Part shown: in pieces, positions 1,905-41,531 of the stretch | How the letters are laid out: every line of letters begins with the position of its first letter | Position numbering within the stretch: the first letter of the stretch is position 1 | Notes under the pieces: model-generated | Told to the model about the DNA's origin: nothing | Databases searched by the model: none | What the model saw: only the letters and a program-made list of their open reading frames with translations | Position numbers and translations under genes: made by a program | NCBI GenBank assembly: GCA_913050005.1 | Contig: CAJXBI010000012.1 | Coordinates: forward strand, 1-41,918 | Source of the DNA: an uncultured Bacteroidota bacterium | GTDB lineage: Bacteria; Bacteroidota; Bacteroidia; NS11-12g; UBA9320 | Reading direction: 5' to 3' | Length of the DNA stretch: 41,918 nt

Positions 1905-1973
1905 TTTATTTAATTTAAGTTCTATATTTAAATATTCAATATTTTTTAAAATTCAATTATCTCAATTGATACA

Positions 1974-1995
1974 ATTACTAACATAAATTCTGCAA
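1974..1995 (-). promoter_or_regulatory. Candidate HTCS operator, site A
   Basis: The plus strand reads TTACTAACATAAA followed by TTCTGCAA. The same pattern occurs upstream of susC, of the T9SS pair and of the SDR gene. The site is 70 bp upstream of the GH29 start at 1904, in the same orientation relative to its gene as the other sites. Found by eye; binding by the HTCS is inference. Confidence 0.4.
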
Positions 1996-2006: not shown

Positions 2007-2030
2007 TTGTAGTATTTGTGTTATTCATTG
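2007..2030 (+). promoter_or_regulatory. Candidate HTCS operator, site A' (inverted relative to site A)
   Basis: TTGTAGTATTTGTGTTA is close to the reverse complement of site A (TTGCAGAATTTATGTTA), so the pair would serve the two divergent GH29 genes. A second TTGTGTTA copy follows at 2043-2050, 27 bp further on. The site ends 44 bp before the ATG at 2074. Confidence 0.38.
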
Positions 2031-2073
2031 TAAATTATAACCTTGTGTTAAGAAATTTTGATATCTAATTTTG

Positions 2074-3687
2074 ATGAAATTTAAAAGAACTTTAAAAATG
2101 TTTATAAATAAATATAATATTTTACTGACAATCGTTTTTACAACATCTATTTTCAGTCAGCAAACTTATCAACCAAATTGGGAATCTATAGATGAAAGAG
2201 AAAATCCGCAATGGTTTAGCAATGCCAAATTTGGAATATTTATTCACTGGGGATTATACTCCGTCCCTGGGTACACCAATAAAGGTACTTATGCCGAGTG
2301 GTATTGGAATGCTTTAAATGAAGACCCTAACACAGCTAAAAAAAGTCGTAGAGAAAGACATTTTGCGATAACAAAATTCCACAATGAAAATTATGGAAGT
2401 GATTATCCTTATTCTAATTTCAGAGATGGGTTTAAAGCAGAATTGTTCAATCCAGACGAATGGGCAAATATATTTAAACGCTCAGGTGCAAAATATGTAG
2501 TATTGACTTCAAAGCATCATGATGGGTATTGTTTATTTCCAAGTACTGAGGCCAGTGAAAGCTATGGAATGGCTTGGAATTCAGTAGAATCTGGACCAAA
2601 AAGAGATTTGGTGGGCGACTTAACATCTGCAGTAAAAAATGTGGGATTAAAAATGGGGCTGTATTACTCTATTTGGGATTGGTACAATCCGTATTGGCCC
2701 AAAGAGCAGCAGGCAATTTTGAGTAAAGGCAGCATGGCTGTTAACTTTAAAGATGGTAGTACAAAAAACAACAAATTTTCTGATGAAGAAATTTTTACTG
2801 CTCAAAAGGGTTTAGATAAATATATCGATAGGGTAATGCTACCCCAGTTAAAACAACTTGTTACCAATTATAAACCAGCATTGTTATTTTCAGATGGAGA
2901 TTGGTGGATGGATTACAAAAAATGGAGAACTCTACAATTTTTATCTTGGGCATTGAATAATGCAGCCAACAAAGATGAGTTGGTTTTTAATGACAGATGG
3001 GGAAAAGTAAGAGGTAAACATGGAGGGTATTACACCACAGAATACGGCTCTGGTTTTGCTGATGGCACTATACCCTGGGAAGAAAACAGAGGAATCGGTA
3101 TGTCTTTTGGCATTAATCGTATTGAAAATATCGATGATTATCGAACAGACAAGGAACTTATATTTATGCTGGTCGACATCGTAAGCAGAGGTGGTAATTT
3201 GTTGTTAAATATTGGTCCAAATGCCGATGGAACTATTCCGGTAATTATGCAACAACGATTAATTGAAATTGGCAACTGGCTTTCTGTCTGTGGCGAAGGA
3301 ATTTATGACACTAAACAATGGATAAAGGACGCTCAATGGAGTTCAGGAATGATCCCATCGTTTACGAAAAATGATTTTCATGCTGGGTTTCCTATTTATG
3401 AAATGACAATTAATCCAAAAATGGGAAATGCTGTTAAAGAATTTTGGTTTACAAAAAAGGAAAACCATTTGTATGTATTTACTCCCCAGTGGCCTAAGAA
3501 AACAAAGCTTTTAATTAAAGATGTTAAAACGACAATTAAGACAGAAGTAAAACTAATGGGTTGTGAAAAATCATTACCATACACTGAAACATCTAAAGGT
3601 ATTATAATAGATATTTCGTCTATTAACATTCATGATTTAAAATCGCATTATGTGTTTGGGTTTAAAATATCAAATATCAAGGAATAA
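2074..3687 (+). CDS. GH29 alpha-L-fucosidase, secreted; first gene of the operon
   Basis: The frame is open from a TTG at 2071, but the ATG at 2074 (537 residues) or the ATG at 2098 is the likelier start; the latter gives a compact signal peptide ending near IFSQ. GH29 motifs in order, in numbering from the 2071 TTG: NAKFGIFIHWGLYSVPGY (51-68), SKHHDGYCLF (147-156), GPKRDLVGDL (175-184) and LLFSDGDWW (271-279). The last has the human FUCA1-like SDG(D/E)W form with Asp275 as expected nucleophile. NIGPNADGTIP near residue 390 is also typical of the family. It heads a four-gene operon with a beta-helix enzyme, another GH29 and a GH117-like protein, and should trim fucose from oligosaccharides in the periplasm. 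The motif type differs from the other three GH29s here, suggesting a different linkage preference. Confidence 0.93.
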   Translation: MKFKRTLKMFINKYNILLTIVFTTSIFSQQTYQPNWESIDERENPQWFSNAKFGIFIHWGLYSVPGYTNKGTYAEWYWNALNEDPNTAKKSRRERHFAITKFHNENYGSDYPYSNFRDGFKAELFNPDEWANIFKRSGAKYVVLTSKHHDGYCLFPSTEASESYGMAWNSVESGPKRDLVGDLTSAVKNVGLKMGLYYSIWDWYNPYWPKEQQAILSKGSMAVNFKDGSTKNNKFSDEEIFTAQKGLDKYIDRVMLPQLKQLVTNYKPALLFSDGDWWMDYKKWRTLQFLSWALNNAANKDELVFNDRWGKVRGKHGGYYTTEYGSGFADGTIPWEENRGIGMSFGINRIENIDDYRTDKELIFMLVDIVSRGGNLLLNIGPNADGTIPVIMQQRLIEIGNWLSVCGEGIYDTKQWIKDAQWSSGMIPSFTKNDFHAGFPIYEMTINPKMGNAVKEFWFTKKENHLYVFTPQWPKKTKLLIKDVKTTIKTEVKLMGCEKSLPYTETSKGIIIDISSINIHDLKSHYVFGFKISNIKE

Positions 3688-3706
3688 TACTTCATCTAAT
3701 TATAGG

Positions 3707-6193
3707 ATGAAAATTAAACCTTTTTTTAAACTATTTATTTTAGTTGGAGTATTATTGATTTCTTCAAAACTCAGTGGTCAAAAAAAATATTATGTTTCTA
3801 ATGGGTCCAATGGTAAGCACCAATATGCCACTATTCATCATGCCCTAAACGCAGTTGATAAACAGATAAAAAGAAGCGGATACCCTAAACAAGGAATTGA
3901 GATTATAATTAAAGATGGATATTATAAAATTGACAAACCCATCAGGATAACAAAAAATTTAAGTGGCACTAAAAAAAATCCTTTGGTTATCAAAGCTGAA
4001 AATCCAAACAATGTTCGATTTTTTGGGGGACATATTTTACATCTAAGTGAATTTAAAAACTTCAATCCCAACAAAGCGACTTTTCAGTTGGTTGATGAAA
4101 AAGCTGCTAGTAAAATCAAAGTATTAGACTTTAAAAAGACTTCAATCAAAAAATCGGATTTAGGAGACTTTGTAAAACACGGTTATGGTTTTGAAAAAAA
4201 TCCATATTACACAACTCCCGCAATGCTTTGGGTAGATCATCAAAGAATGCATTTGTCACGATGGCCAAATATTGATGAATATAATGAGTATTATGATAAC
4301 ACCAATCAATTTAATGGCAGGTTTAAAGATGTATTTATTAAAGGAGCGGTTTCTTTAACAAATGTGATTGACAAAGGGCAAAAAAAACAAAATAAGTGGT
4401 ATTTAAATCAAGAGTTTTTAGAAAATGGTGGCGGAACCTTTGAAGTAGCTTTTGACCGTGGTAGTCAATGGAACTTTCACAAAAAAAACGACGAAAAGAT
4501 TTGGTTAGATGGTGTCTTATCAGCCTCATGGGAATGGGAATACACAAAAATTAAATCTATTGAAAATAGAAGAATCAAATTGGCTTCAGGTTCAAACAGG
4601 GGATTAGGTTTTTTTAGAAAAGTAACTCATTTTCATTTTGAAAACATCCCAGAAGAATTGGATACGGAGGGAGAGTATTTCATGGACAGAGAAAACATGC
4701 TGCTTTACTTCTACCCTCCTTATGATGTGAAAGAAAAAACAATTACTTTATCTACTCTAGAACAAAACATGTTTCATGTTATAGGAGCTTCTAACATTAA
4801 GATTGAAGGTCTTGTGTTAGAGTCTGGCAGAGGAAACGCAATTTTTATTAACAGTCTTAAATTCGGAGGTGAAATAAAATCCAAAAGCAATAACATTCTT
4901 GTAGAAAACTGTATAATTAGAAACTTTAATCAATGGGGAGTTATTATTCAAAATTCGCAAAACTCGACAGTAAACAACTGCGACATTTATAATATGGGGG
5001 CTGGGGGTGTGAGACTTGGAATTGAAAAAAAGAGTTTTAACCTAGTGAAAGAAAACAATTTGGTTACCAACTGTAAAATATACGAGATTGCATTTGATCA
5101 AAAATCACAAGTACCAGCAATTACCCTAGCAGGAAACGGAAACTCAGCAAGAAATAACGAAATCTATAACACACCACATTTTGCTGTTAAAATGAAATAT
5201 GCCAATAATTGTGTAACAGAAAAAAATTATATCCACGATTTACCAAAATACCATCATTTTGATGGTGGTGCTGTTTACTTGGCTACTGGAAATCAGTTTT
5301 TTAATAGAGGAAATAAAATAACGCATAATTACTTCGAAAATATATCCACAAACGGAGCTTATCTAGATAATTATACTATGGGAAATTATGTGCATGGAAA
5401 TGTGTTTTATAATGTTGGGAATAACACAAAAGGATCTAAAAATGCAGCTGTTTACATTCACGGCGGGGGACAAAATGTGGTGAGCAACAACATTGCAATC
5501 AATTGCCCATTTGCGTACAAAACAGGATCGCATATTATCAAAAATTTTAACACTGCAAATTACTTAAACTCTTGGTATAACGATGCTAAAAATCACTTTA
5601 AAAAAAGTGATAAGTTGTATGCAGATTTTACACAACAATATCCAGAAATAAAAGAGTTAATCTATAAATTACATAAATCTCCGAAAGTTATTTTGGATCA
5701 TGTTTCCAATCAATCTCTTAAGAAAATTTCCTCGAATGAAAATAGAAAATCGCAATTGGACATGTATGATTTAAAAGGGGCTAATTCTTTTTTCGTCAAA
5801 GACACAAATAACCTTGAATGGATGAATTGGTTTGAGATCAGATATCAGTCATCAACTTTTAAAAATAATATTTACTCATTTAGTTCTGATGAATTTCTTC
5901 CAGATTTTGAAGGAAATGACAAAGGGGCGAAGGGCGCCTTTAAACTTGGAAAAGAAAGTGGCGTATTTTTAATGGCTCCATATAAGTTAAAAGTAAATTC
6001 CAAAATCAAAAAGATTTCAAATCATCGTGTTGTTAACAACCATTATCTAAAAGATTTTCCATTGAATATTAGAAGAAGCTCTCATTCATATGGATTGGAG
6101 TTAAATTCTATTATTAGCTTCCCTGATATTTCTAATTTCAAAGATATCAACCTAAAAGAAATCGGTATCAATAAATCTATTGGCAAAGATTAA
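3707..6193 (+). CDS. Right-handed beta-helix glycan-active protein, GH141-like
   Basis: About 828 residues from the ATG at 3707, preceded by AGGA. The frame extends upstream into the previous gene, but this start gives a proper signal peptide ending near LSGQ. The N-terminal YYVSNGSNG...YATIHHALNAV pattern, LSRWPN, SWEWEY, a GEYFMDRENMLLYFYPP segment and repeated asparagine-rich coils (NSQNSTVNNCDIYNMG and similar) are those of right-handed parallel beta-helix carbohydrate enzymes. The nearest family I recognise is GH141, which includes fucosidase and xylanase activities. Position between two GH29 genes (19 bp after the first, 1 bp before the next) fits a fucosidase-type or debranching role in the periplasm. 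Catalytic residues were not identified and a lyase is not excluded. Confidence 0.7.
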   Translation: MKIKPFFKLFILVGVLLISSKLSGQKKYYVSNGSNGKHQYATIHHALNAVDKQIKRSGYPKQGIEIIIKDGYYKIDKPIRITKNLSGTKKNPLVIKAENPNNVRFFGGHILHLSEFKNFNPNKATFQLVDEKAASKIKVLDFKKTSIKKSDLGDFVKHGYGFEKNPYYTTPAMLWVDHQRMHLSRWPNIDEYNEYYDNTNQFNGRFKDVFIKGAVSLTNVIDKGQKKQNKWYLNQEFLENGGGTFEVAFDRGSQWNFHKKNDEKIWLDGVLSASWEWEYTKIKSIENRRIKLASGSNRGLGFFRKVTHFHFENIPEELDTEGEYFMDRENMLLYFYPPYDVKEKTITLSTLEQNMFHVIGASNIKIEGLVLESGRGNAIFINSLKFGGEIKSKSNNILVENCIIRNFNQWGVIIQNSQNSTVNNCDIYNMGAGGVRLGIEKKSFNLVKENNLVTNCKIYEIAFDQKSQVPAITLAGNGNSARNNEIYNTPHFAVKMKYANNCVTEKNYIHDLPKYHHFDGGAVYLATGNQFFNRGNKITHNYFENISTNGAYLDNYTMGNYVHGNVFYNVGNNTKGSKNAAVYIHGGGQNVVSNNIAINCPFAYKTGSHIIKNFNTANYLNSWYNDAKNHFKKSDKLYADFTQQYPEIKELIYKLHKSPKVILDHVSNQSLKKISSNENRKSQLDMYDLKGANSFFVKDTNNLEWMNWFEIRYQSSTFKNNIYSFSSDEFLPDFEGNDKGAKGAFKLGKESGVFLMAPYKLKVNSKIKKISNHRVVNNHYLKDFPLNIRRSSHSYGLELNSIISFPDISNFKDINLKEIGINKSIGKD

Positions 6194-9434: not shown

Positions 9435-11234
9435 TTATTTCTTTAAGATTTTGATATAATAAGCACCCATATTGATTTGTTCTCCTTCAAACCACGATTG
9501 AAAACGTTGCCCTTCTCCGGACTTTAATTTGATTTTAAAACTAACTTTAAAATCATCTTTCCCTATTTTTTTATCCAAAGACTGTTTTCCAAATTTAATC
9601 TTTGCTTTTGTAATTGCTAAAACCTTTCCCCTTTTACTTTCTTCAACGCTAGTACCTGCAATTGCTAGTCTTTCTATTTTTCCTGACGAAATGGGATGCT
9701 GTAAATGCAAAGGCCATCTGCTCAAAGTGATTTCATATTCACCAGGTTCTTCTACGTCTAATACCCAAAATCCGTTTTCTTGAATTCCGGCTCTAACATG
9801 TCTTTGATGCCATGGAACTTGTGATTCTGAATGCCAATCGTGACTTGTAATATGCACTGGGTTTTCAAATCTTGAGCCAATTATAATACCTGCATACTCA
9901 TCGAACCTTTCAGAAACATCTCCCCACCAATCTTCATAAACCTCTTTATATTGTTTTACTATTTCTTGATGTTGTTCTGCAATATCGTTTTGCTGTGAAG
10001 GATCTTCAATAATATTGTATAACTCAATTCCATTTACCAATCGAAATTTATCTGACATGACAGCACTTTTACGCCATTTTATAGGATGCTGTAAGCGCTG
10101 AGAATCTGTAATCAAAATCCTATCGCTCCATTGATGGGATTCATTATTTAATAATGGCACTAAACTTTTACCATCATATAAAGTTTGATCTTTATCTTCA
10201 AGATTACATAAATCAATTAGTGTTGGTAAAACATCAATATGAGAAGAAATTTGTGAAATATCTCTTCCTGCTTCTATATTCCCATTTTTCCACCGAATAA
10301 AGAAAGGAACACGGTGTCCGCCATCATACTCGCTGTTTTTCTTACCCCGCATTCCAGCATTATAAGGGTTTATTTTTTTAGATTTATGTTCACCCATGGC
10401 AGAACCGTTATCAGTAATAAAAATGAGTATGGTATTGTCTGTAATCTTTAAGTCTTCCAGTTTATTCATTAGCAATCCAATATTATCATCGAAATTGGTA
10501 ATCATTCCATAAAATTCTTTGCTGGGTACATTGGGAAAACCTCTGTAAAGATCACTATAAGTATCATCTACATAAAAAGGACTATGAGGTGCGTTTGTGG
10601 AGATATAACAAAAAAATGGTTGATTTTTTTGATTTTCAATGTAATTCATGGCTTCTTCAAACCAAACATCGGTACAATAGCCTTTGTATTTCTTGGGCTT
10701 TCCACTGTATAGATATGTATCGTCATAGTAATCGTTATCAAAAAAATCTGGAACTTGTCCAATTCCGCCAGCACCATGAACTAAAGTTTCTTGAAAGCCT
10801 CTATCTTCAGGTCTGTATGGATAATTATCTCCTAAATGCCATTTCCCAAAAATAGCAGTGCTATAGTTGTTTTCAGCAAAAATATTTGCAATGGTTTTTT
10901 CATCCTTTCTTAATAAAGAACGACCACCAATGGTATGCCAAACCCCGGTTCTGTTTGCATAACGGCCTGTCATTAAAGCTGCCCTAGTAGGAGCACAGGT
11001 TGGACTTACATGAAAATTTGTAAAACGGGTACTCTCAGTATATAACTTATCTAAATTAGGAGTTTTTATAATTGGATTTCCGTGGCAAGCCATATCTCCG
11101 TAGCCTTGGTCATCTGTTAAAATTATGATGACATTTGGACGTGAATTTTGAGCAAATGTACTTACAGAAAAAATACATAAAATTGGCCATAAAAGAACGC
11201 CAACACGAAAACTTCTCTTACAATGGATTTGCAT
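9435..11234 (-). CDS. S1 family sulfatase with C-terminal beta-rich extension
   Basis: 599 residues with a signal peptide ending near STFAQ. Sulfatase motifs: NVIIILTDDQGYGD (metal-binding Asp41-Asp42), CAPTRAALMTG with Cys80 as the residue oxidised to formylglycine, GKWHLGD, and FITDNGSAMGEH (second Asp-Asn metal pair). The last roughly 130 residues lie beyond the usual S1 end and resemble a beta-sandwich (HVRAGIQENGFWVLDVEEPG). It should remove sulfate esters in the periplasm. It is the last of three sulfatase genes downstream of susCD, with 108 bp before it, and may have its own promoter there. A formylglycine-generating enzyme must be encoded elsewhere. Sulfate position and S1 subfamily cannot be given from motifs alone. 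Confidence 0.92.
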   Translation of the reverse strand: MQIHCKRSFRVGVLLWPILCIFSVSTFAQNSRPNVIIILTDDQGYGDMACHGNPIIKTPNLDKLYTESTRFTNFHVSPTCAPTRAALMTGRYANRTGVWHTIGGRSLLRKDEKTIANIFAENNYSTAIFGKWHLGDNYPYRPEDRGFQETLVHGAGGIGQVPDFFDNDYYDDTYLYSGKPKKYKGYCTDVWFEEAMNYIENQKNQPFFCYISTNAPHSPFYVDDTYSDLYRGFPNVPSKEFYGMITNFDDNIGLLMNKLEDLKITDNTILIFITDNGSAMGEHKSKKINPYNAGMRGKKNSEYDGGHRVPFFIRWKNGNIEAGRDISQISSHIDVLPTLIDLCNLEDKDQTLYDGKSLVPLLNNESHQWSDRILITDSQRLQHPIKWRKSAVMSDKFRLVNGIELYNIIEDPSQQNDIAEQHQEIVKQYKEVYEDWWGDVSERFDEYAGIIIGSRFENPVHITSHDWHSESQVPWHQRHVRAGIQENGFWVLDVEEPGEYEITLSRWPLHLQHPISSGKIERLAIAGTSVEESKRGKVLAITKAKIKFGKQSLDKKIGKDDFKVSFKIKLKSGEGQRFQSWFEGEQINMGAYYIKILKK

Positions 11235-23963: not shown

Positions 23964-24322
23964 AGTTCATTTTTTAAACTATACTAGAAATAATATAATT
24001 CCTAGACAATTTAAAGATACTATATTCATTGCAGGAATTCTATTTTCTATTAGTAAGCCTGATGCTTTTAACCTCAATATTTAATCCTCTGTACCTTATG
24101 TCTTTGCTACGAAACTCTTTCAAAGTAATTACAAAAATATACTATCTAGCATACTTTAAAGTCACAACTTGGGGACCTTTTACTAAATGAATAGCTCCTA
24201 AAGCTGAGGTATTCCACTTCCTTTTTGTCTGACTTTTGGTTTGAAATGAGACTAAAAAAGCTGCGACAATAAGAGCTAGCTGGTTGGTCAATTATTATAG
24301 AATTTTGAATCAAAATTCTATT
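23964..24322. other. Intergenic region between the T9SS beta-helix gene and the HTCS gene
   Basis: 359 bp. It contains a decayed coding remnant at 24142-24291 (separate entry) and upstream sequence of the HTCS gene. A TATTTTTG on the minus strand (24132-24139) matches the Bacteroidota -7 consensus, but no well-spaced -33 TTTG was found. Confidence 0.4.
24142..24291 (-). pseudogene. Remnant of a carbohydrate-binding-type C-terminal module
   Basis: The minus strand is open from a TTG at 24289-24291, just after two stop codons, to a TAG at 24142-24144 (49 codons). The end, TSALGAIHLVKGPQVVTLKYA, parallels the last strands of the module in the GH29 at 6195-7988 (TSLGEFNLTKGMNSITLKA). That pattern, Leu-Gly, three to four residues, Leu, Lys-Gly, then Thr-Leu-Lys, is common at the C terminus of jelly-roll sugar-binding domains. 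The rest of the gene is missing, so this looks like the tail of a deleted enzyme. Confidence 0.45.
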
Positions 24323-26458
24323 TTAATTAACGATTATTTTTTTTGAAATATTCACCCCTTCTTTGTTTGAAAAGAAAAAAAAATATAAGCCTTCATTCAA
24401 TGAGGAAACATTTAACAAGTTTGGTATATGTATAAATTCCAATACTTTCTGTCCTCTAATATTAAAAGCTGTGAGCGAAGAGTCACGTAGTTCATTAGGA
24501 ATCGAAATATTAAGCACCTGATTATCTACAGGATTTGGAAATACTTTTATTTCTATTTCCTGATTATTTTCCATAGTCCCTAAAGATAAAAATGACCACG
24601 GGTAAAAATCCGGTGTCCAAGTAGCTCCTGCAGTCCATGTATCTCCGATTTCATAGGCTCCAATATCTGGTGCACTCCCAGAAAATCCATCGTTAATTCC
24701 GGGAATAATTGTTCCACCATCAATTAATTGTGTTGATGTAGATTTCGGTGTGAAATCGTAATTGTCTGGATCGTTTAATAAAGACTTGATTCCATAATCA
24801 GTAGTAGTTGTTGAATAAATATTATAGCTTACAGTACCGGGTACTGTTTGCGGATTTTTACGATGACCTGAAATTTTATCTGCTGCATTATTTTTTGTAA
24901 TTGTCAATCCGTTAGAACTCCCACCTGGAGGATCTGCATAAACCTCATACATTACGCTAATGTCATTAGTACTATTATCAAAACAAGTGTTGTTATAGAT
25001 TTGCTGTTCGTCCCCTTTTATCATTAACGCTTTACTTAAGTTCCACATCACGTTATGGTGAATCAATCCATTTTTTCCTGCCAGTTCTGGATCGCTAACT
25101 GGTGCATCATAACGAGTTCCAGATTTAGGAGAATCGTGAAACCAATTATGGTGTACTTTAGAGCCATCAACTGACTCTCTTGTCATCTGTACAATAGAGC
25201 CATCACTTTGTAAAGACCCAGTATTGTAAATATTATTGTAAGATATTTCCGGTGAACCAACAAAATGTACTGTAGATGAAGCTCCTGTTGTATGTACCGT
25301 ATTTCGTGTGAAAGATCCATTATCACCATTGTTCACCACAGTTGTCATCAAGTTTCTTAAAGAGGAAACTGTATAGTCTATATGATGAAAATAACAGTCT
25401 TCAACTACATTATTTTTTCCATTCATATAAAATGCGTCTCCGTCAGTATGCTCAAACAAGCATTGGTATATTTTGAACCCCGTGATATTGTTTTTATTAT
25501 TCCCTGTTAATTCAGTAGTAAATGGCGTACTTTTTTCGCCTAACATTCTTTTAGAACAACTAGGATAAGAAAACAAACAATTGTTTAATTCAATTTCTGA
25601 AGATCGGGATGCTTTAACTGTGGTTGCGAAAAAATTTAAGTTTTCTATTTTGATATTTGAACAATTATTCATTTCAAAAGCATAGGATTGTACCTTACCT
25701 TGAATCTTTTTCCCAGAAGGATTTCCCCAAACCGACAACTTTTTTGTTAAAGAGTCATATAACCATTCATTTTGCGTATTTAAAAAATCTATCTTCCCTT
25801 CCAAAAAATAATAATGATGTTTGCTCTTGTAGCTTTCTGCAGTTTCATAAGTGAATGTACTATTACCTGGCGTATGTGATAACACTTTAACTGTCCAGGT
25901 TTTCCATGACCCTACATTGGCTATTGCCAAAGCACCTTGAACATTTAAACCACTAGCTGCTAAGTTTCCAGAGTCTACCATTATACCGTTTGAACCTGCA
26001 CTAGCATCACCTGGTGACCAGTATGCTTGGTCAAAAATAGTATCATCATGAAACTGTGCATTTGGCCAACGTGCCATAACTTGCTGCTCATCATCAATAA
26101 ATAATTGCCATATATCCTCTGTCAATGTAGTTTCATAAATATTTGGATTGCCAGCATTTTGAGTCCAAGATGTTTCAATTGACTTGGTGCCGTTGATGAT
26201 CACTTTTTCGTTTGGAAAAGCTTTAATAATGATATTGTCTCTGTTTTCTAAAAGAACTCTTTCATGATAATAACCCTCTCTGATAATACAAGTGCCGCCA
26301 GAGGCTCCCATAGCGTTTATTGCATTGTTTATAGTTAGAAAAGGTAGTGATTCTGTCCCGGGATTTAAATCGTTTCCCTGAAGTGAAACATAGAATGTTT
26401 GAGAATGTATTTTAATTGTTACAAATAACAAGAAAAACAAAAACATAATATTTTTCAC
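24323..26458 (-). CDS. T9SS-secreted right-handed beta-helix protein, possible endo-acting glycan enzyme
   Basis: 711 residues. A signal peptide ends near KIHSQ. TFYVSLQGNDLNPGTESLPFLTINNAINAM opens the right-handed parallel beta-helix, followed by GYYHERVLLENRDNI, MARWPN and many asparagine-rich coils (NNKNNITGFKIYQCLFEH, DGDAFYMNGKNNVVEDCYF, HHNVMWN). The last roughly 80 residues (VFPNPVDNQVLNISIP ... LNEGLYFF) are a type IX sorting domain, so the mature protein is exported to the cell surface or medium. A surface location outside the SusCD gate is where an initial depolymerase would act. The family was not assigned, and no known alginate lyase or endo-fucanase motifs were recognised. It follows a small T9SS protein after a terminator-like hairpin. 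Confidence 0.75.
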   Translation of the reverse strand: MKNIMFLFFLLFVTIKIHSQTFYVSLQGNDLNPGTESLPFLTINNAINAMGASGGTCIIREGYYHERVLLENRDNIIIKAFPNEKVIINGTKSIETSWTQNAGNPNIYETTLTEDIWQLFIDDEQQVMARWPNAQFHDDTIFDQAYWSPGDASAGSNGIMVDSGNLAASGLNVQGALAIANVGSWKTWTVKVLSHTPGNSTFTYETAESYKSKHHYYFLEGKIDFLNTQNEWLYDSLTKKLSVWGNPSGKKIQGKVQSYAFEMNNCSNIKIENLNFFATTVKASRSSEIELNNCLFSYPSCSKRMLGEKSTPFTTELTGNNKNNITGFKIYQCLFEHTDGDAFYMNGKNNVVEDCYFHHIDYTVSSLRNLMTTVVNNGDNGSFTRNTVHTTGASSTVHFVGSPEISYNNIYNTGSLQSDGSIVQMTRESVDGSKVHHNWFHDSPKSGTRYDAPVSDPELAGKNGLIHHNVMWNLSKALMIKGDEQQIYNNTCFDNSTNDISVMYEVYADPPGGSSNGLTITKNNAADKISGHRKNPQTVPGTVSYNIYSTTTTDYGIKSLLNDPDNYDFTPKSTSTQLIDGGTIIPGINDGFSGSAPDIGAYEIGDTWTAGATWTPDFYPWSFLSLGTMENNQEIEIKVFPNPVDNQVLNISIPNELRDSSLTAFNIRGQKVLEFIHIPNLLNVSSLNEGLYFFFFSNKEGVNISKKIIVN

Positions 26459-26477
26459 ACCCTTTTGATTTTAATTT

Positions 26478-26515
26478 AAAAAAAAACTTAGGGAAAAGAC
26501 CAGTTTCCCCCAAGT
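26478..26515 (-). terminator. Intrinsic-terminator-like hairpin between the two T9SS genes
   Basis: On the minus strand ACTTGGGGGAAA pairs with TTTCCCTAAGT around a 7-base loop (stem GGGAAA/TTTCCC plus an outer ACTT/AAGT, with a small internal loop), directly followed by a run of nine Ts (26478-26486). It lies between the stop at 26540 and the start at 26458. It probably ends or attenuates transcription after the small T9SS protein. Confidence 0.7.
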
Positions 26516-26539
26516 CTTAAAATTTAATGTTGATAAACT

Positions 26540-27313
26540 TTATTCTTTTATGATTTTATAAGTTCCTATATTTTGATCAATAGTAACATTCATAATGTAA
26601 ACACCTTTTGAAAGATTTGAAATATCAAGAGTTCCCTTGGTATCACGCATATCTGTACTTAAAAACTTTTGCCCTACTAAATTAAAAACTTCGACATTGC
26701 CAATATTTTTAGCCGCTGATAAATAAATAGAATGTTCTGTTGGATTAGGACCAAAACTAAAATCGTATTTTTTCAACTTATCAATAGAAGCTGTAGATTC
26801 ATTCGGAGAAACAGTCACATTTATTGTTTCACTTACACCACTTACAGGGTCTTGTGTCGTGATATTTAATTCTACATCTGTACCATTAACGTAAGTTCCT
26901 TTGTATTCAAGATTAAAACGAATTTTGTTAACTTGTCCACCAGCAAAATTACAACCAGTTAATGTATTGCCGGTTGCATTGTGAGCGTAAGCCGTGAGCG
27001 TAAAGTCATTTGAAGAAATGGATAACATATCGTCAATACTAGTAGGATCAGGAATATTATTTTCAAATATTATCTCAGCTTGTATCCAATTCTTTGAAAG
27101 TACCTCTAAATTTAAATTTAATTCCCAATTAGAAGTGTTAGATGAACCAGCATACCCACCAGTAGCTCCTGTAAAATTTGTTGGATAGCTTACGGTTGTT
27201 TTACCTCCTGCAGTACAACCAGGCACAGCAAAACCGTTAGCTTTTAACGACTTAATCTGTCCATATGAATTACTGATAACAAATAAAGATATTAAGAGTA
27301 AAATTTTTTTCAT
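26540..27313 (-). CDS. Small T9SS-secreted protein of unknown function
   Basis: 257 residues. A signal peptide ends at SNSYGQ; residues about 20-165 form a beta-rich domain with two cysteines (GCTAGG and GCNFAGG) and many Thr, Asn and Gly residues; residues about 180-257 are a type IX sorting tail (FSFGPNPTEHSIYLSAA, NVEVFNLVGQKFLS, LSKGVYIMNV). I do not recognise the N-terminal domain. Surface export next to a beta-helix enzyme in a PUL suggests a glycan-binding protein, but this is inference from context. It is the first gene of a minus-strand unit, with operator site C 68-88 bp upstream, so it is likely induced together with susC and, because of the hairpin after it, more strongly than its downstream neighbour. 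Confidence 0.75.
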   Translation of the reverse strand: MKKILLLISLFVISNSYGQIKSLKANGFAVPGCTAGGKTTVSYPTNFTGATGGYAGSSNTSNWELNLNLEVLSKNWIQAEIIFENNIPDPTSIDDMLSISSNDFTLTAYAHNATGNTLTGCNFAGGQVNKIRFNLEYKGTYVNGTDVELNITTQDPVSGVSETINVTVSPNESTASIDKLKKYDFSFGPNPTEHSIYLSAAKNIGNVEVFNLVGQKFLSTDMRDTKGTLDISNLSKGVYIMNVTIDQNIGTYKIIKE

Positions 27314-27850
27314 TGACTTTATATTTATTAGTATTAAAATTAAAAAAACTTGAATTAAACTTGTTTACGTAAATTTCAATTATTAACACAAAAATTGCAG
27401 TTCGTGTATTTGATTTACGAAATCTAACAACTTTTATGGGCTCTATTATATTAATAGTTTTTTTAAATAATTCATAAATATCTTCTCATGATTATAATAG
27501 TAAAAGTTTTAGCATAAACATGTCAACATAGATTTTTTATAACTGCATAAAAGCAAGATTATACCATCAAGAATAAAAAATTATTAAAAGCTATTAGGTT
27601 TGGAATAACTAAAGAATATCCAGCAAAGTTTAAAGCTCTAGACAAAACATTGAATTGATTTTTCAATAAAACAGTAATTTATTGTAGTGTTAATGAATGA
27701 TATCAATGGTAATCAATTTATTTTAAATCAATTTTCATCACATTTGCCTTAGTCAACTGTTGTTTTTGTTGTACTTTTTGAAATATTTAGATTAAAACTA
27801 TAACCGTTCAAACATTATTTTTATTAAAATCTAAATGATATACTTCTAAA
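27314..27850. other. Divergent intergenic region, T9SS unit / GH141-like operon
   Basis: 537 bp, strongly AT-rich. It contains operator site C near the left end and a weak related sequence, TTGTAGTGTTAATGAAT, at about 27682-27698, which would serve the plus-strand operon. A 35-codon open stretch around 27553-27660 was judged insignificant. No other gene was seen. Confidence 0.45.
27381..27401 (-). promoter_or_regulatory. Candidate HTCS operator, site C
   Basis: TTATTAACACAAAAATTGCA fits the pattern TTA(C/T)TAACA(T/C)AAA plus a TGCA half. It is 68-88 bp upstream of the T9SS gene start at 27313, in the same relative orientation and a similar distance as sites A and B. Confidence 0.42.
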
Positions 27851-30133
27851 ATGACGAAACTAACAGTCCTTATTCTTTCATTCATTGCTTTTGGTTGTTC
27901 GCAATCAAACAATCCAATAGAATTTTATGTAGACGTTACTGGTAACGACAGCAATCAAGGCACACTTGAAGCCCCTTTTAAAACCATTGAGCAAGCAAAA
28001 AACGCAATTAGAGCACTTTCAGAACAACAAAGGCAAAAGAATATAAATGTTTATTTAAGAGCTGGCACACATACGTTGTCAGAAACTATTGTTTTTGAAC
28101 TCGAAGACTCAGGAGCAGACAAAACCAAAATCACCTATCAAGCATATCAAAATGAAATTCCAATTATTTCTTCCGGGGTTCCATTAAAAAATTGGAAGAA
28201 ACTAGAGTCTTACCCCGCTGATTTACCTGAGGTAGCTAAAGGAAATGTATATGTTACAGACATTCCTGATGGTCTAGGGCGCTTCTATACCATGTTTGAC
28301 GGTGATAAGCGAATTCCAGTTGCCCGCAAAGAAGGGTTTGATTTTAAAAATATTAATTATGTACGTGCGAAAAGTATGAACGTACTACATGAAAAAGATC
28401 GGTATTTACTCAGAAGATTAGAGCTTACTGGGGGAAAAATTTTAAAATCATGGCCAAATCTTGAAGACATTGAAGTAGGTTTCGCTCCTGTACCATGGAC
28501 TATGAATATGATGCAATTAGAGTCTGTTGATGAAAAAAATGGTATTGCTTGGACGACCTTAGAAGCCAATGCGCCACCTGCAGCTAAAAAATCACATACC
28601 AAGCCTTGGGTAGAAAATGTGATAGATTATTTAGAAACGCAAGGACATTGGGTGGTAAATACCCAGGAACGTAAAATTTATTATTGGCCAGAAAACGGAG
28701 AACCTTCAAAAAACCTAGTTATTCCTAAGCTAAAGGAGTATTTTAGAGTTGAGGGGAAAATAGATTATAAGGGGCCTATCGATACTCCAACAAAAAACAT
28801 TGTGTTTAAGGGTTTAACCTTCATGCATGGAGAACGTGATACATGGTGGAAAGGTCACAAAGGTTGGGGAATTCAACATGACTGGGATAAGTTTGATAGA
28901 GGAAATGCGATGCTTCGTTTTAGAGGAGCTCAGGACTGTGAAGTTACTGAATGTAGGTTTACAAACAGTGGTGGTTCAGCAATTCGATTAGATCTACATG
29001 CTCAAAACATCAACATCAATAACAACATGATAGATTTTGTTGGTCATATGGGAATTTTACTATGTGGTTATGGACCTGGAACCAAAGATGTAAACAAAAA
29101 CAACTCTATAACAAATAACTTAATTCATCATGTCGGTCGCATTATGAAAATGGGTGCAGGAATATTTATGTGGCAAAGTGGAAGTAATCACGTTGCCAAT
29201 AATTTAATTCACCATGTGCCTAGAAAAGCAGTTGGTGTTTGTGGAATTAGAGTCCCTATCCTACAAAAAAGAGATATCGATTTTGATGAAGCATCTAAAA
29301 CAATTCGTTGGGATGAAATTGATACATCAATAGCAAGTGAAGGTTCCTTTTGGGAGCGTTACACTCCTTTTTTACATGCAAGTAACAATATTATTGAATA
29401 CAACGAGGTGTATAGGGCATTGGAGGAACTTGCAGATGGTTCTGCATTAAATGTATCTGGGGCTGGGGAAGGAAATATAATGAGAAACAACTACGCGCAC
29501 CACATTACAAGTCATGCTTCTGGAGTGATGCGAACAGACGATTGGCAAAGAGGTACGACATTTGAAAACAACGTTATCTATATGGCAAATATTTCAGGAA
29601 TTGTTCATAAAGGTTTTAATCATATTGTCAATAATATTATCGTAGATTGTAGTTCCAGAGAATCTATTCGTTTTGCCTCGTACCCAGATGAAGAAGCTGA
29701 CTACGGCTCAAAGATTCAGAACAATATTTATTACGAATCTAAAGACGCTATAAAGTACTATAATATTTCTTACAGAGCCTCCGAAGGGATTTCAAAACCA
29801 GAAGATTGCGATACAGACAAGAATATCTTCTTCTGTGCAGGCAATATAAACCAAGCAAAAAAATTTGTGGAAGCTAAAAGAAAAGATGGCATAGAAATCA
29901 ACAGTATTGTTGCTGACCCTTTATTTGAGGATATAGCAAATCAAAACTTTAAATTAAAACCTGAATCTCCTGCTTTCAAGCTTGGTTTTAAAAAGATTGA
30001 CATGAGTCAAATTGGATTGAAAAAAAATCTTTTCCCTAAACGATACATCAAATTTGATGTTGAAGATATTGATGGTAGAAGACCTAATTTCCACAGAAAC
30101 AGAAAAGGAGAAGAAACCTATGATTTTTGGTAG
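27851..30133 (+). CDS. GH141-like right-handed beta-helix lipoprotein
   Basis: 760 residues. SPII signal with lipobox AFGC (Cys16). It opens with the canonical FYVDVTGNDSNQGTLEAPFKTIEQAKNAIR, then VYLRAGTHTLSETIVF, followed by MFDGDKRIPVARKEGF and an insertion before a right-handed parallel beta-helix rich in NNxIxxVG-type turns (INNNMIDFVGHMG, NNLIHHVGRIMKMGAGIFMWQ). This architecture matches GH141, whose characterised members include an alpha-L-fucosidase. It heads a plus-strand operon with four sulfatases and a small secreted protein. It differs strongly from the beta-helix protein at 3707-6193, so the locus holds two separate enzymes of this kind. Lipidation suggests attachment to a membrane facing the periplasm or surface. 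Confidence 0.8.
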   Translation: MTKLTVLILSFIAFGCSQSNNPIEFYVDVTGNDSNQGTLEAPFKTIEQAKNAIRALSEQQRQKNINVYLRAGTHTLSETIVFELEDSGADKTKITYQAYQNEIPIISSGVPLKNWKKLESYPADLPEVAKGNVYVTDIPDGLGRFYTMFDGDKRIPVARKEGFDFKNINYVRAKSMNVLHEKDRYLLRRLELTGGKILKSWPNLEDIEVGFAPVPWTMNMMQLESVDEKNGIAWTTLEANAPPAAKKSHTKPWVENVIDYLETQGHWVVNTQERKIYYWPENGEPSKNLVIPKLKEYFRVEGKIDYKGPIDTPTKNIVFKGLTFMHGERDTWWKGHKGWGIQHDWDKFDRGNAMLRFRGAQDCEVTECRFTNSGGSAIRLDLHAQNININNNMIDFVGHMGILLCGYGPGTKDVNKNNSITNNLIHHVGRIMKMGAGIFMWQSGSNHVANNLIHHVPRKAVGVCGIRVPILQKRDIDFDEASKTIRWDEIDTSIASEGSFWERYTPFLHASNNIIEYNEVYRALEELADGSALNVSGAGEGNIMRNNYAHHITSHASGVMRTDDWQRGTTFENNVIYMANISGIVHKGFNHIVNNIIVDCSSRESIRFASYPDEEADYGSKIQNNIYYESKDAIKYYNISYRASEGISKPEDCDTDKNIFFCAGNINQAKKFVEAKRKDGIEINSIVADPLFEDIANQNFKLKPESPAFKLGFKKIDMSQIGLKKNLFPKRYIKFDVEDIDGRRPNFHRNRKGEETYDFW

Positions 30134-34779: not shown

Positions 34780-34875
34780 CATTTGTAACTTTTGTGGTAA
34801 TTTTTGAAATAAATGATAATAAGCTCATTACGTTTCAAAAATAACTTTGTCGTTTGTAATTATAAACTAAAGATT

Positions 34876-35217
34876 ATGAAACATTTTATCACTTCAATCG
34901 TTTTATTATTCATTACAGTTTCGATCTCTGCCCAGTCCAAAGAAGAGACAAAAGCTCAAAATAGAACTGACGAAATTGTTGAATTATTATCGCTTAATAA
35001 AGATGAAACATTAAAAGTATACGAAGCCCTTTTAGCAAAAGAGAAAAAGATTACAATTTTAAAAGAAGAATACAAAGATAATCAAGAAACTTTCAAAGCT
35101 GAAATCAAGATGTTAAATAGAGCTACAAACCGTGTTATGAAAGATTTCCTAGGAGGTGAAAGTATGCAGAAAATACATGCACACTTTAGAGCAAAAAGGG
35201 AAAATTCTAAAAAATAG
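34876..35217 (+). CDS. Small secreted helical protein, unknown function
   Basis: 113 residues from the ATG at 34876; an upstream in-frame ATG at 34813 would bury the signal peptide. The signal ends at SISAQ. The mature part is short, rich in Lys and Glu, has no cysteine, and should be nearly all helical, with a heptad-like spread (LLAKEKKITILKEEYKDNQ). It sits between two sulfatase genes, 96 bp after one and 42 bp before the next. The partial gene at 41778 begins with a clearly related sequence. Size, location and composition recall periplasmic Spy/CpxP-type helical proteins, but no family motif was recognised. Confidence 0.75.
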   Translation: MKHFITSIVLLFITVSISAQSKEETKAQNRTDEIVELLSLNKDETLKVYEALLAKEKKITILKEEYKDNQETFKAEIKMLNRATNRVMKDFLGGESMQKIHAHFRAKRENSKK

Positions 35218-38558: not shown

Positions 38559-39713
38559 TTAAAAAGTTCGAATTAGTTTACTTTGTAAATCATTGATTTG
38601 TGCACAGCTTAGCTGCTCCATGACTTGAGTCAATTGTGTTTTTAACATCGCAATTGTATGATGCCCCCCTTTTTTTCCAAGAGCAGAAACACCATACATA
38701 AAAGTACGGCCTAAAAAACTAAAATCTGCTCCACTAGCCATCACTCGCGCCACATCAGCGCCTCCACGAATACCACTATCCATCATCACAGTTAACTTGT
38801 CTTTGTAAAGTGGTGCAATGTCTTTTAATGAATCTATAGTCGCTTGACCAACGTCAACTTGACGTCCACCATGATTGGAAATAATGACTCCGTCTAAGCC
38901 CAGTCGATACGCTTTTTCTACATCATATGCAGACTCAGCTCCTTTAAGCACTAGTTTGCCTTTCCACAAATCACGAATCTTTTTGATTTTTTCTTCGTTT
39001 AATCGACCCGAGAATGTAGCATCCATAAATTTCGCAAGTTGATTTAGGTTTAGGTTTTTTGACATATATGGTTTGAGTACCTCGAAACTTGGTTGACCAT
39101 GAACTAGGGTTTGCAATGCCCAATGGGGTCTTTTAGCCGCATTGATAATATTGGTCAAAGTCATTTTAGGTGGCATGGACAAACCATTACGAATATCCCT
39201 GGGGCGATAACCAAAAGAAGGGACATCAGCAAGTATGATTAATACCGGGCATCCTGCTACTTCGGCGCGTTTCAAAATATCTTTGGTGACTCGTTCCTCT
39301 GCAGGGTGGTAAAGCTGAAACCAAGAATTACCTTCTGTAATTTCAGCAATTTTTTCAATACTAGCTGTGGTAACAGTACTTAATACAAAAGGGATATTAT
39401 GATCAAATGCTGCTCTGGCAAGTATCTCTGGTGACTTGGGCCACATCAGTCCTTGCAAGCCAACTGGCGAAATACCGAAGGGTGCGTCGTATGTATGTCC
39501 AAAAAGTTCTGTTTTTAGATCAGGTTTTTGGTATTCAACCAAATATTTTGGCTTTAGTTCAATATCACGAATCCGATCTGTATTCTTTTTAAGGTTTACA
39601 TCGTCATTACAACCACCATCTAAATATTCAAAAGCAAATTTTGGAATTTTTCTTTTTGCACGTGCTCTTAAATCTGGTACAGAAGGGTATTTATAATTTA
39701 TCTCTGACTCCAT
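38559..39713 (-). CDS. lldD: FMN-dependent L-lactate dehydrogenase (2-hydroxy acid dehydrogenase family)
   Basis: 384 residues, no signal peptide, so a cytoplasmic or membrane-associated flavoprotein. Family features: PKFAFEYLDGG near residue 24, FGISPVGLQGL (79-89), WFQLYHPAEE (131-140), DVPSFGYRPRDIRNG (163-177), and VIISNHGGRQVD (276-287) with catalytic His281 and Arg284. It oxidises L-lactate, or another L-2-hydroxy acid, to the 2-keto acid. Its placement behind an SDR and an FAH-family hydrolase fits the last step of L-fucose breakdown, which releases L-lactate. Its stop directly abuts the ATG at 38558 upstream of the GH29, so the two are translationally coupled or nearly so. A related glycolate or mandelate-type activity cannot be excluded. 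Confidence 0.9.
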   Translation of the reverse strand: MESEINYKYPSVPDLRARAKRKIPKFAFEYLDGGCNDDVNLKKNTDRIRDIELKPKYLVEYQKPDLKTELFGHTYDAPFGISPVGLQGLMWPKSPEILARAAFDHNIPFVLSTVTTASIEKIAEITEGNSWFQLYHPAEERVTKDILKRAEVAGCPVLIILADVPSFGYRPRDIRNGLSMPPKMTLTNIINAAKRPHWALQTLVHGQPSFEVLKPYMSKNLNLNQLAKFMDATFSGRLNEEKIKKIRDLWKGKLVLKGAESAYDVEKAYRLGLDGVIISNHGGRQVDVGQATIDSLKDIAPLYKDKLTVMMDSGIRGGADVARVMASGADFSFLGRTFMYGVSALGKKGGHHTIAMLKTQLTQVMEQLSCAQINDLQSKLIRTF

Positions 39714-39880
39714 TCATTTTTATTTAAGCAATATATTTTTTCATCAACCCCATTTTCTTGAAGGATAGGCTCCAAATCTTTTGGAAGGAAATCCTTTTTT
39801 TTGGATTACAGACATCTACTCGTCAATCAATACATCCCTAACGAGGTTATATTTCCAAAAATGCTGATGACTATCAATTA

Positions 39881-40735
39881 TCATTTATATGCTTTACATG
39901 ATTGCCTTGCAATACCTAAACCATCTATCCCTAGTTCGACTACATCACCTTCTTTAAGATATCTTGGCGGATTTAAACCTAACCCAACTCCAAAGGGTGT
40001 TCCGGTTGAAATAATATCTCCAGGGAGTAAGGTCATAAATTGACTAATGTAGCTAACGACTTCTTGAACATTGAATATGAAATCTGATGTACTACTAGCT
40101 TGCATTATTTCTCCATTGAGCTTTAACCAAAGATTTAAGTCATTGGGGTTTTTAATTTCATCCGTTGTTGCGATAAATGGACCAATTGGAGCAAAAGTAT
40201 CACAACTTTTTCCCTTAACCCATTGACCTGATTTTTCCAATTGAAATGCACGTTCACTAACATCGTTGTGCAACACATAGCCGGCAACGTGATTTAATGC
40301 ATCTGCTTCTGAAACATATGATGCCTTCTTACCAATCACAACAGCTAATTCCACCTCCCAATCTGTTTTTTCACTTCCCTTAGGAATTACAATCGGGTCA
40401 AAGGGACCAACTATAGATGAAGTAGATTTAAAAAAAAGTACGGGTTCTTTGGGAATATCCATACCACTTTCAGCAGCATGCTTGGCATAATTTAAGCCAA
40501 CGCATACTATTTTTGATGGACGACTCAATGGAGATCCCAATCTGATATCATCATGAATTTCTGGGCAAGAATCTTGATTTTTTGACAACCAATCTATCAA
40601 ATTCTGAATTCCATCATTTCCAAAAAAGTTTTCATCATAATCTATTACAAAATTTGAAACATCTATTTTTTTTCCATTTGATAAAATTACACCTGGTTTT
40701 TCTCCATTAGTTTCCCCAAATCGAATAAGTCTCAT
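39881..40735 (-). CDS. FAH-family hydrolase, probable 2,4-diketo-3-deoxy-L-fuconate hydrolase
   Basis: 284 residues, cytoplasmic. The fumarylacetoacetate-hydrolase fold is evident: CVGLNYAKHAAESG (78-91), PVLFFKSTSSIVGP (98-111), DWEVELAVVIG (125-135) with metal ligands Glu127 and Glu129, HNDVSERAFQ (156-165) with Asp158, KSCDTFAPIGPF (176-187) and LLPGDIISTGTPFGVG. In non-phosphorylating L-fucose and L-rhamnose pathways such enzymes cleave a 2,4-diketo acid into pyruvate and L-lactate. The gene lies 7 bp after an SDR dehydrogenase and is followed by lactate dehydrogenase after 167 bp. The family is firm; the fuconate substrate follows from this context. Confidence 0.88.
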   Translation of the reverse strand: MRLIRFGETNGEKPGVILSNGKKIDVSNFVIDYDENFFGNDGIQNLIDWLSKNQDSCPEIHDDIRLGSPLSRPSKIVCVGLNYAKHAAESGMDIPKEPVLFFKSTSSIVGPFDPIVIPKGSEKTDWEVELAVVIGKKASYVSEADALNHVAGYVLHNDVSERAFQLEKSGQWVKGKSCDTFAPIGPFIATTDEIKNPNDLNLWLKLNGEIMQASSTSDFIFNVQEVVSYISQFMTLLPGDIISTGTPFGVGLGLNPPRYLKEGDVVELGIDGLGIARQSCKAYK

Positions 40736-40742
40736 AATTAAT

Positions 40743-41531
40743 TTATTTAGAGTTAAGTGTTATAAACCCGCCATCAATTCCGTAGTCTGAACCTGTAATA
40801 AAACTCGCTTCATCACTACATAAAAACAATGCCAAATCTGCAATTTCTTGTGGCGTTCCCATACGACCAATAGGTTGTGTTTTTGAAAGTTTATCAAAAA
40901 TTTCATCTTCCTTACCCGGATAATTTTTCTTTATAAATCCATCTACAAAAGGAGTGTGAACTCGAGCTGGAGAAATACAATTACAACGGATATTATGGTC
41001 GATGTAATCTTTAGCGATTGCATAAGTCATTGTTAGAACAGCACCTTTAGACATTGAATATGCAAAACGATCTGATATTCCAACAGAAGATGCGATAGAA
41101 GCTAAATTTAGAACCACACCTCCACCATTGATTTTCATAAGGGGAATACAAGCTTTTAAACAATTAAAAACGCCTTTAATATTTATATTGTAAAGTCTAT
41201 CCAAATCTTCTTCTTCACACACTTCAATATTCCCTACATGAGCAACGCCAGCATTGTTTACTAAAATATCAATCGATACTTTTTTTGAAATTTTTTCTAT
41301 TACAGTTGATACTTCATCTGAATTTGAGACATCACATTTGTATGATTTGGATTTATATCCTTCATTGTTAATTTCAAGAACCACATCCGCAGCGGCTTTT
41401 TCATTGTAATCAAGTATGTGGACATACGAGCCTTGCATTGCAAAGTTTTTTGCGATTGCTCTGCCAATACCACTTCCACCTCCGGTAATCAAGCTTATCT
41501 TGTTATTTAAGGAAAATTTTGGTTCCATCAT
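40743..41531 (-). CDS. Short-chain dehydrogenase, probable 2-keto-3-deoxy-L-fuconate dehydrogenase
   Basis: 262 residues; cytoplasmic NAD-dependent SDR. Features: TGGGSGIG (16-23), Asp41 at the end of the second strand (favours NAD over NADP), NNAG (92-95), catalytic Ser145, and Tyr158-X3-Lys162 (FAYSMSKGA), then the C-terminal GSDYGIDGGF. ATG at 41531 or 41528. In L-fucose and L-rhamnose catabolism an enzyme of this type oxidises 2-keto-3-deoxy-L-fuconate to the 2,4-diketo acid, the substrate for the FAH-family hydrolase encoded 7 bp downstream. Upstream pathway steps (fucose dehydrogenase, lactonase, dehydratase) are not in the window. Operator site E lies 114 bp upstream of its start. Confidence 0.88.
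   Translation of the reverse strand: MMEPKFSLNNKISLITGGGSGIGRAIAKNFAMQGSYVHILDYNEKAAADVVLEINNEGYKSKSYKCDVSNSDEVSTVIEKISKKVSIDILVNNAGVAHVGNIEVCEEEDLDRLYNINIKGVFNCLKACIPLMKINGGGVVLNLASIASSVGISDRFAYSMSKGAVLTMTYAIAKDYIDHNIRCNCISPARVHTPFVDGFIKKNYPGKEDEIFDKLSKTQPIGRMGTPQEIADLALFLCSDEASFITGSDYGIDGGFITLNSK

Follow-up and report, generated by a model that had tools for sequence, protein, structure and literature searches.

A type IX-exported beta-helix protein and its hypervariable neighbor as a candidate surface fucanase pair in an ocean Bacteroidota bacterium

We describe a pair of neighboring genes in a stretch of 41,918 nucleotides (contig CAJXBI010000012.1; hereafter the window) from the genome of an uncultured ocean Bacteroidota bacterium (assembly GCA_913050005.1; 1.37 Mb, 86% complete). 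Both open reading frames (ORFs) lie on the minus strand of a polysaccharide utilization locus (PUL): a beta-helix gene at 24323-26458 (711 aa, GTG start) and, 81 bp before it, a small-protein gene at 26540-27313 (257 aa, ATG start). The two are adjacent also in three relatives, L004, L005 and L006. The best reading of the pair, to which we assign a probability of roughly 0.45, is that of a surface endo-fucanase with an allele-switching accessory protein. The beta-helix protein would be a glycoside hydrolase (GH) of the GH141/GH120 beta-helix superfamily that is exported by the type IX secretion system (T9SS) and makes internal cuts in sulfated fucan at the cell surface. The fragments would then enter through SusC/D, and GH29 fucosidases and sulfatases would complete their breakdown. 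Asp419 together with Asp451 (or Glu458) may act as nucleophile and acid/base, and Arg449 may hold a sulfate. The small protein probably shares a transcript with the enzyme and is exposed on the same surface, where it would most likely be accessory, either holding the polysaccharide or assisting the enzyme. Its gene appears to be swapped for diverged alleles between strains, as might be expected if variable substrates, or else phages and grazers, exert pressure on it.

The original prediction for this DNA, made from the letters alone, held that both proteins carry T9SS tails, and this was confirmed. The type A sorting domain PF18962 (cut-off 27) scored 37.2 bits in the beta-helix protein and 38.4 bits in the small protein, and TIGR04183 (cut-off 23) scored 30.4 and 49.6 bits, respectively. 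The tails are encoded at 24329-24544 and 26549-26749, both on the minus strand. An N-terminal hydrophobic stretch, read from the sequence by eye, is present in both proteins. Genome-wide, 36 T9SS tails were found, 35 of them above cut-off, along with a SprA-family protein (PF14349, E 1e-154). Judged from sequence, the pair shows the hallmarks of T9SS cargo, namely a putative signal peptide, a type A sorting domain and the machinery in the same genome. Because of the 35 tails above cut-off and the SprA-family protein, the predicted export of both proteins to the cell surface is credible.

The fucose-polysaccharide context that had been proposed for the PUL was likewise recovered. Family searches found four GH29 genes (327-1904, 2071-3687 and two starting at 6180 and 37011), seven sulfatase genes (starting at 9435, 11343, 12850, 30154, 31659, 33262 and 35254), SusD (start 14511), SusC (start 16094), a hybrid two-component system regulator (HTCS; start 19692) and a GH141-like enzyme at 27851-30133 on the plus strand. 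The latter carries an R-x-D motif and is of the kind of PDB entry 9rx2, a 'parallel beta-helix repeat protein' (phmmer E 1.5e-156), for which no published function was found in the literature under '9RX2'. A GH43-like gene starts at 7992. At 38559-41531, family searches identified an L-lactate-dehydrogenase-type enzyme dependent on flavin mononucleotide, a hydrolase of the fumarylacetoacetate hydrolase type and a short-chain dehydrogenase/reductase (SDR), a trio which we take to fit the end of the oxidative L-fucose pathway, which leads to pyruvate and L-lactate. Since the PUL is rich in GH29 and sulfatase genes and is accompanied by genes of the oxidative L-fucose type, sulfated fucan is the most likely substrate.

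A 16-sequence profile (A4) of the beta-helix protein, searched against the PDB, placed the GH120 xylosidase XylC (3vst, E 3.1e-31), 9rx2 (E 1.3e-30) and the GH141 enzyme BT1002 (5mqp, which acts on rhamnogalacturonan II; E 3.6e-17) at the top. Foldseek with the AlphaFold model returned 5mqp first (1.1e-10) and 3vst as the second protein (2.1e-7). These matches bear out the beta-helix fold predicted for the large protein, and two of the four families that had been singled out for comparison, GH141 and GH120, are top matches in both searches. The claim that the protein has no motif of a known family held for single-sequence searches, where Pfam and NCBIfam gave the sorting tail and weak sub-threshold matches (for example DUF1565); it did not hold for profile searches, in which the protein is GH141/GH120-like.

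Each of the three top matches is close in some respects and distant in others. The similarity to GH120 is concentrated at the N-terminus: the first coil contributes 92.9 of 111.6 bits, and the match is strong only over profile positions 22-116. A profile match to the pectate lyase 1ru4 likewise lies at the first coil, and also near the C-terminal end. BT1002, as described in PMC10154630, is a beta-helix with a beta-sandwich inserted after the first coil. It is the best Foldseek match, but residues 131-227 of the model have a predicted local distance difference test score (pLDDT) below 50, and the window protein showed neither detected single-sequence similarity to BT1002 nor a match to the GH141_M insertion domain (PF21231, E up to 1), while its catalytic-coil register with BT1002 is weak. 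The ortholog in L004 reaches 13.3 bits with PF21231, for which the cut-off is 27. For 9rx2, the catalytic coil is in register and shares an S-G-x-R-x-D motif, but 9rx2 is far closer to the neighboring enzyme at 27851-30133 than to the beta-helix protein. On profile and model evidence, we place the protein beside GH141 and GH120 and away from polysaccharide lyase family 6 (PL6). We do not file it under GH141 proper, because the PF21231 model fails and two of the signatures of subfamily GH141*6, given below, are absent.

The putative catalytic residues were located by aligning the family with 9rx2 (22.0 bits, i-E 4e-4), which puts its two Asp positions on the D-G-N-G and I-R-T-D of that protein; the register we use rests on this alignment, on a 1.6-bit stretch of the 5mqp alignment and on the motif. 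Asp419 (codon 25202-25204, minus strand) aligns with the first Asp of 9rx2 and is invariant. Together with N438, H441, H468 and N469 it is kept in 17/17 aligned sequences, the window and the more distant relative L007 included. Two candidates exist for the second residue, namely Asp451, within Arg449-Tyr450-Asp451 (codons 25106-25114, minus strand), and Glu458 (codon 25085-25087, minus strand), which precedes the HHN of the next coil by 9 residues. In BT1002 the catalytic pair is D523 and D564 (PMC12786026, PMC10154630). In our comparison BT1002 is represented by five BT1002-type proteins, not by its own sequence; their second Asp stands in L-Y-[TS]-D, and in one of them (L045) it follows the first by 41 residues, the spacing of D523 and D564. 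The motif reads G-[IV]-Y-x-D in the other relatives of the window protein and G-T-R-Y-D or G-F-R-F-D in its own clade, where the loop that follows is about 7 residues longer. We tentatively favor Asp451 as the second residue, since S-G-x-R-x-D occurs in 9rx2 and R-x-D in the enzyme at 27851-30133 and in 736-aa proteins of L004 and L005.

If Asp451 is the right residue, Arg449 stands at the Arg position of GH141*6. The motif xRxDx is a published mark of the endo-1,4-alpha-L-fucanases of this subfamily (Wf141_1, Wf141_2 and Wf141_4), whose Asn and Arg residues, taken as a group, have Ala, Gly, His or Tyr as their counterparts in BT1002 and Xyn141E (PMC12786026). The window protein shares with the Wf141 fucanases this motif, in the form R449-Y450-D451, which is at the right site only if D451 is catalytic, and a fucan-type PUL. 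It differs from them in its T9SS tail and in lacking two of the three published signatures, a comparison that was made by signatures and not by sequences. The residue two before the second Asp is Arg in all five members of the window clade (four close genomes and L007) and in 4/4 proteins of two neighboring GH141-type genes (two orthologs each). It is Tyr in 15/15 other full-length relatives and in 5/5 BT1002-type proteins, whose Tyr-x-Asp thus stands opposite Arg-x-Asp in the window protein. This count covers the full-length L011-L020 and three further places, with the partial or weaker matches L021-L039 left out. In a tree the Arg clade is a single branch with a support of 100/100 and a long stem (1.47). 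As an interpretation of these sequences, the depolymerase role first suggested for the beta-helix protein seems likely.

A scan of genome contigs with the beta-helix protein found six loci: L004-L006 at 89-91% identity, L007 at 39% and two from Paenibacillus at 26-29%. Among 38 genomes of the family (E up to 1e-20) and 108 of the order (E up to 1e-10) only the window's own protein matched, and no relatives were found on viral contigs. With a 7-sequence profile, 77 of 395 genomes of the class matched (E up to 1e-10). Many of these matches were confined to the N-terminal coil; 13 that lie outside the window exceeded 215 bits and were nearly full length. The L007 relative (1-2346 of its contig) carries an R-F-D motif and has no Pfam family. 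It lies at the contig end, the contig starting inside the gene, and no other PUL gene was seen within 12 kb of sequence.

The small protein is conspicuous for the variability of its N-domain (26750-27256, minus strand), which is nearly an orphan. This domain had been called unrecognised, and it remains so: no Pfam or NCBIfam family, carbohydrate-binding module (CBM) families included, was above cut-off. The model of the protein is beta-rich and of low confidence (pLDDT 54). A fold read from it was rejected, the best structural match, with CBMs included, having an E of 0.014. At E up to 0.001, the N-domain was matched in the 38 family and 108 order genomes by the window's own copy only. In a search of 395 genomes, an N-domain profile matched four genomes other than that of the window (E 0.002-0.008); stops interrupt the match in three of them, and we treat all four as noise. 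One copy of the small protein is present in each of the three relatives that have the PUL, and none was found in the L007 genome. All four versions carry two Cys in their mature part.

Compared with the window version, the N-domain has 33% identity in L004, 42% in L005 and 35% in L006; for the tail of the small protein the figures are 77, 74 and 78%, in the same order, while shared neighbors are 87-93% identical (seven genes with L004, six with L005 and two with L006, some of them cut by locus ends). In the closest pair, L004 and L006, synonymous divergence (dS) reaches 0.66 for the N-domain and 0.32 for the tail, compared with 0.06-0.11 in the beta-helix, GH29 and HTCS genes. In windows of 150 bases, DNA identity of this pair is 77-79% over most of the N-domain and 90-100% from the gene end onward. 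This suggests that the small-protein gene has been replaced by diverged alleles between strains; because dS is raised too, the pattern would reflect allele replacement and not only fast protein change. The argument rests on dS, as with four sequences, no outgroup and an unrooted tree, recombination is not provable by the tree and its direction cannot be told. Nor can phage pressure and substrate variation be separated as causes of the diversity.

A different role for the small protein, compatible with the best reading of the enzyme, has a real though minority chance: it may be an exposed adhesin or decoy diversified by phages or grazers. Its gene is the one strongly divergent gene among the shared PUL genes compared, and the lack of a significant fold match extends to carbohydrate-binding modules. 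On the other side, the gene and that of the enzyme share a strand and are 81 bp apart, with the candidate PUL element described below ahead of both, and each PUL-bearing relative has exactly one copy. The accessory role is the one that we prefer.

A number of observations weigh against an endo-fucanase. The first concern the fold and its placement. A single-sequence phmmer search of the PDB at E up to 1 found sorting domains only and no solved catalytic relative. The AlphaFold model is poor (mean pLDDT 55, predicted template modeling score 0.61, 325 of 641 residues below 50), and its Foldseek superposition on 5mqp is loose, with a template modeling score of about 0.4 and a root mean square deviation of 10.6 A. 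Others touch the active site. The stretch that places Asp419 on the D523-type Asp (D-V-A-G-[IV]-Y) in one 5mqp alignment amounts to only 1.6 bits. The best hhalign alignment of the family with the BT1002-type proteins is one coil off, the second being in register, and the alignment of the 16-sequence profile to 5mqp is one coil off as well. Pairwise alignments put the Asp of the relatives on D451, on E458, elsewhere or nowhere, and with E458 as the catalytic residue, Arg449 would fall outside the fucanase position. The beta-helix protein lacks two GH141*6 signatures. For xHQxWxxxD there is no HQ, HQ.W or QH.W (the neighbor at 27851-30133 has QHDWDKFD, with the first two letters swapped), and for DG-N-N, with Asn 26 and 31 residues after the Asp, D419-G420 is present, but residue 445 is Lys and residue 450 Tyr. 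The beta-helix region is also acidic (41 K+R compared with 64 D+E in 610 residues), whereas published fucanase sites are described as electropositive (PMC12786026). Lastly, of the neighborhoods of 13 relatives (16-20 kb; tblastn with 23 window proteins, E up to 1e-8), one contained a PUL-type sulfatase and a different one a SusC/D pair together with a weakly matching SDR; GH29 was found in none. The wider beta-helix family is thus not fucan-specific, and the substrate assigned here rests on the window PUL and the Arg.

Some of these points leave room for other functions of the beta-helix protein. It might hydrolyze another polymer or side chain, for example xylose linkages, and be nearer to the GH120 xylosidase or a GH141 xylanase than to fucanases. 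GH120 XylC as best profile match, the Tyr-type motif of 15 other relatives and the GH43-like protein in the PUL speak for this; nevertheless, we regard it as unlikely, given that the GH120 match is mainly N-terminal, that the Tyr is missing from the window clade and that GH29 and sulfatases dominate the PUL. Slightly less probable still is a protein that descends from such an enzyme but serves at the surface for binding or as an inactive scaffold. The altered motif and longer loop around the second catalytic residue speak for this, but the five residues kept in all 17 sequences, L007 at about 40% identity among them, and a dN/dS of 0.11-0.18 among the four close sequences of the gene argue against it. 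A polysaccharide lyase of the PL6 or PL31 type is very improbable: apart from the right-handed beta-helix itself and weak profile matches to PL6, chondroitinase B and other lyases, the comparison with PL6 that had been suggested found no support, as the PL6-type matches are confined to the generic N-terminal coil (about profile positions 37-109) and PL6 structures gave Foldseek E-values of 0.03 or worse against 1.1e-10 for 5mqp.

Going beyond the surface endo-fucanase as such, one could speculate, at rather long odds, that the surface endo-fucanases of the window clade constitute a new family or subfamily, which would have arisen by a Tyr-to-Arg change in an old family of beta-helix hydrolases. 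The binding domain of the partner protein would be exchanged between strains and thereby follow differences in fucan sulfation or give escape from phages. Searches of the literature, which covered titles and abstract openings on fucan PULs, on hypervariable surface proteins that bind glycans and on the T9SS in connection with fucoidan, turned up no description of such a pair.

The original prediction also held that the pair shares a candidate operator with the rest of the PUL. A candidate operator or promoter element of 16 bases, TTTGTGTTAATAATTG, lies at 27377-27392 (minus strand), 63 bp before the start of the small-protein gene. It recurs without mismatch at 2015-2030 (plus strand), upstream of the GH29 gene 2071-3687, and with one mismatch at 1972-1987 (minus strand), upstream of the GH29 gene 327-1904; these two GH29 genes form a divergent pair. 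The pattern TTTGTGTTANNNATTG, with at most one mismatch, is thus found three times in the window, compared with 0.30 expected, and 0/100 shuffles reached three. At this stringency the motif occurs nowhere else in the window, and neither HTCS nor SusC is preceded by it, so the idea of sharing stands for the pair and the two GH29 genes and does not extend to the other two. L004 and L005 each have an exact match to the pattern 64 bp before the small gene, although a single match was reached by 16/100 shuffles in L004 and by 22/200 in L005. A longer form of the motif has two matches in the window (reached by 2/100 shuffles), and genome-wide its two best matches fall in the window PUL, with four matches at up to two mismatches and one for the backwards control. 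All these chance figures are post hoc, the motif having been read by eye from the promoters of the window, L004 and L005. When four intergenic stretches were compared blindly by k-mers, no shared site exceeded the shuffles (22-mers: best 16-19 matches, shuffle maxima 18 or 19). Because the pattern was picked after looking and the blind comparison was unremarkable, the element stays a candidate.

Two genes that neighbor the pair have decayed in the window. At 24043-24321 (minus strand), a GH29 gene survives only as its two ends, interrupted by stops and with much of the interior lost; the gene is whole in L004-L006, where it lies between the beta-helix gene and HTCS. At 27551-27655 (plus strand) there is a C-terminal remnant of the 736-aa GH141-type gene, which is whole beyond the small gene in L004 and L005 (PF21231 33.6 bits in L004). 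The window, L004 and L005 have whole reading frames for both members of the T9SS pair. The small-gene frame of L006 begins 9 bases from the contig end, and its start is uncertain. A further beta-helix protein is encoded at 3650-6193 (847 aa). It has a D-G-G-A-V-Y ... G-A-Y-L-D motif with Tyr at the place equivalent to Arg449, found no match in the PDB at E up to 0.01 and matched the family of the pair's beta-helix protein by hhalign (E 1.8e-19). Between the sulfatases, at 34813-35217, lies a 134-aa ORF without a Pfam family at E up to 0.01.

To our knowledge, the enzyme responsible for the first cut in a sulfated fucan outside a small marine cell is not settled. These fucans belong to the algal sugars whose degradation is slow (PMC12786026). 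The pair described here, from an assembly of 1.37 Mb, offers a testable candidate for the first cut, with the residues named. Its hypervariable partner suggests that a PUL surface protein may be under diversifying pressure at the strain level; sugar use would thereby be tied to variation in phages or substrates.

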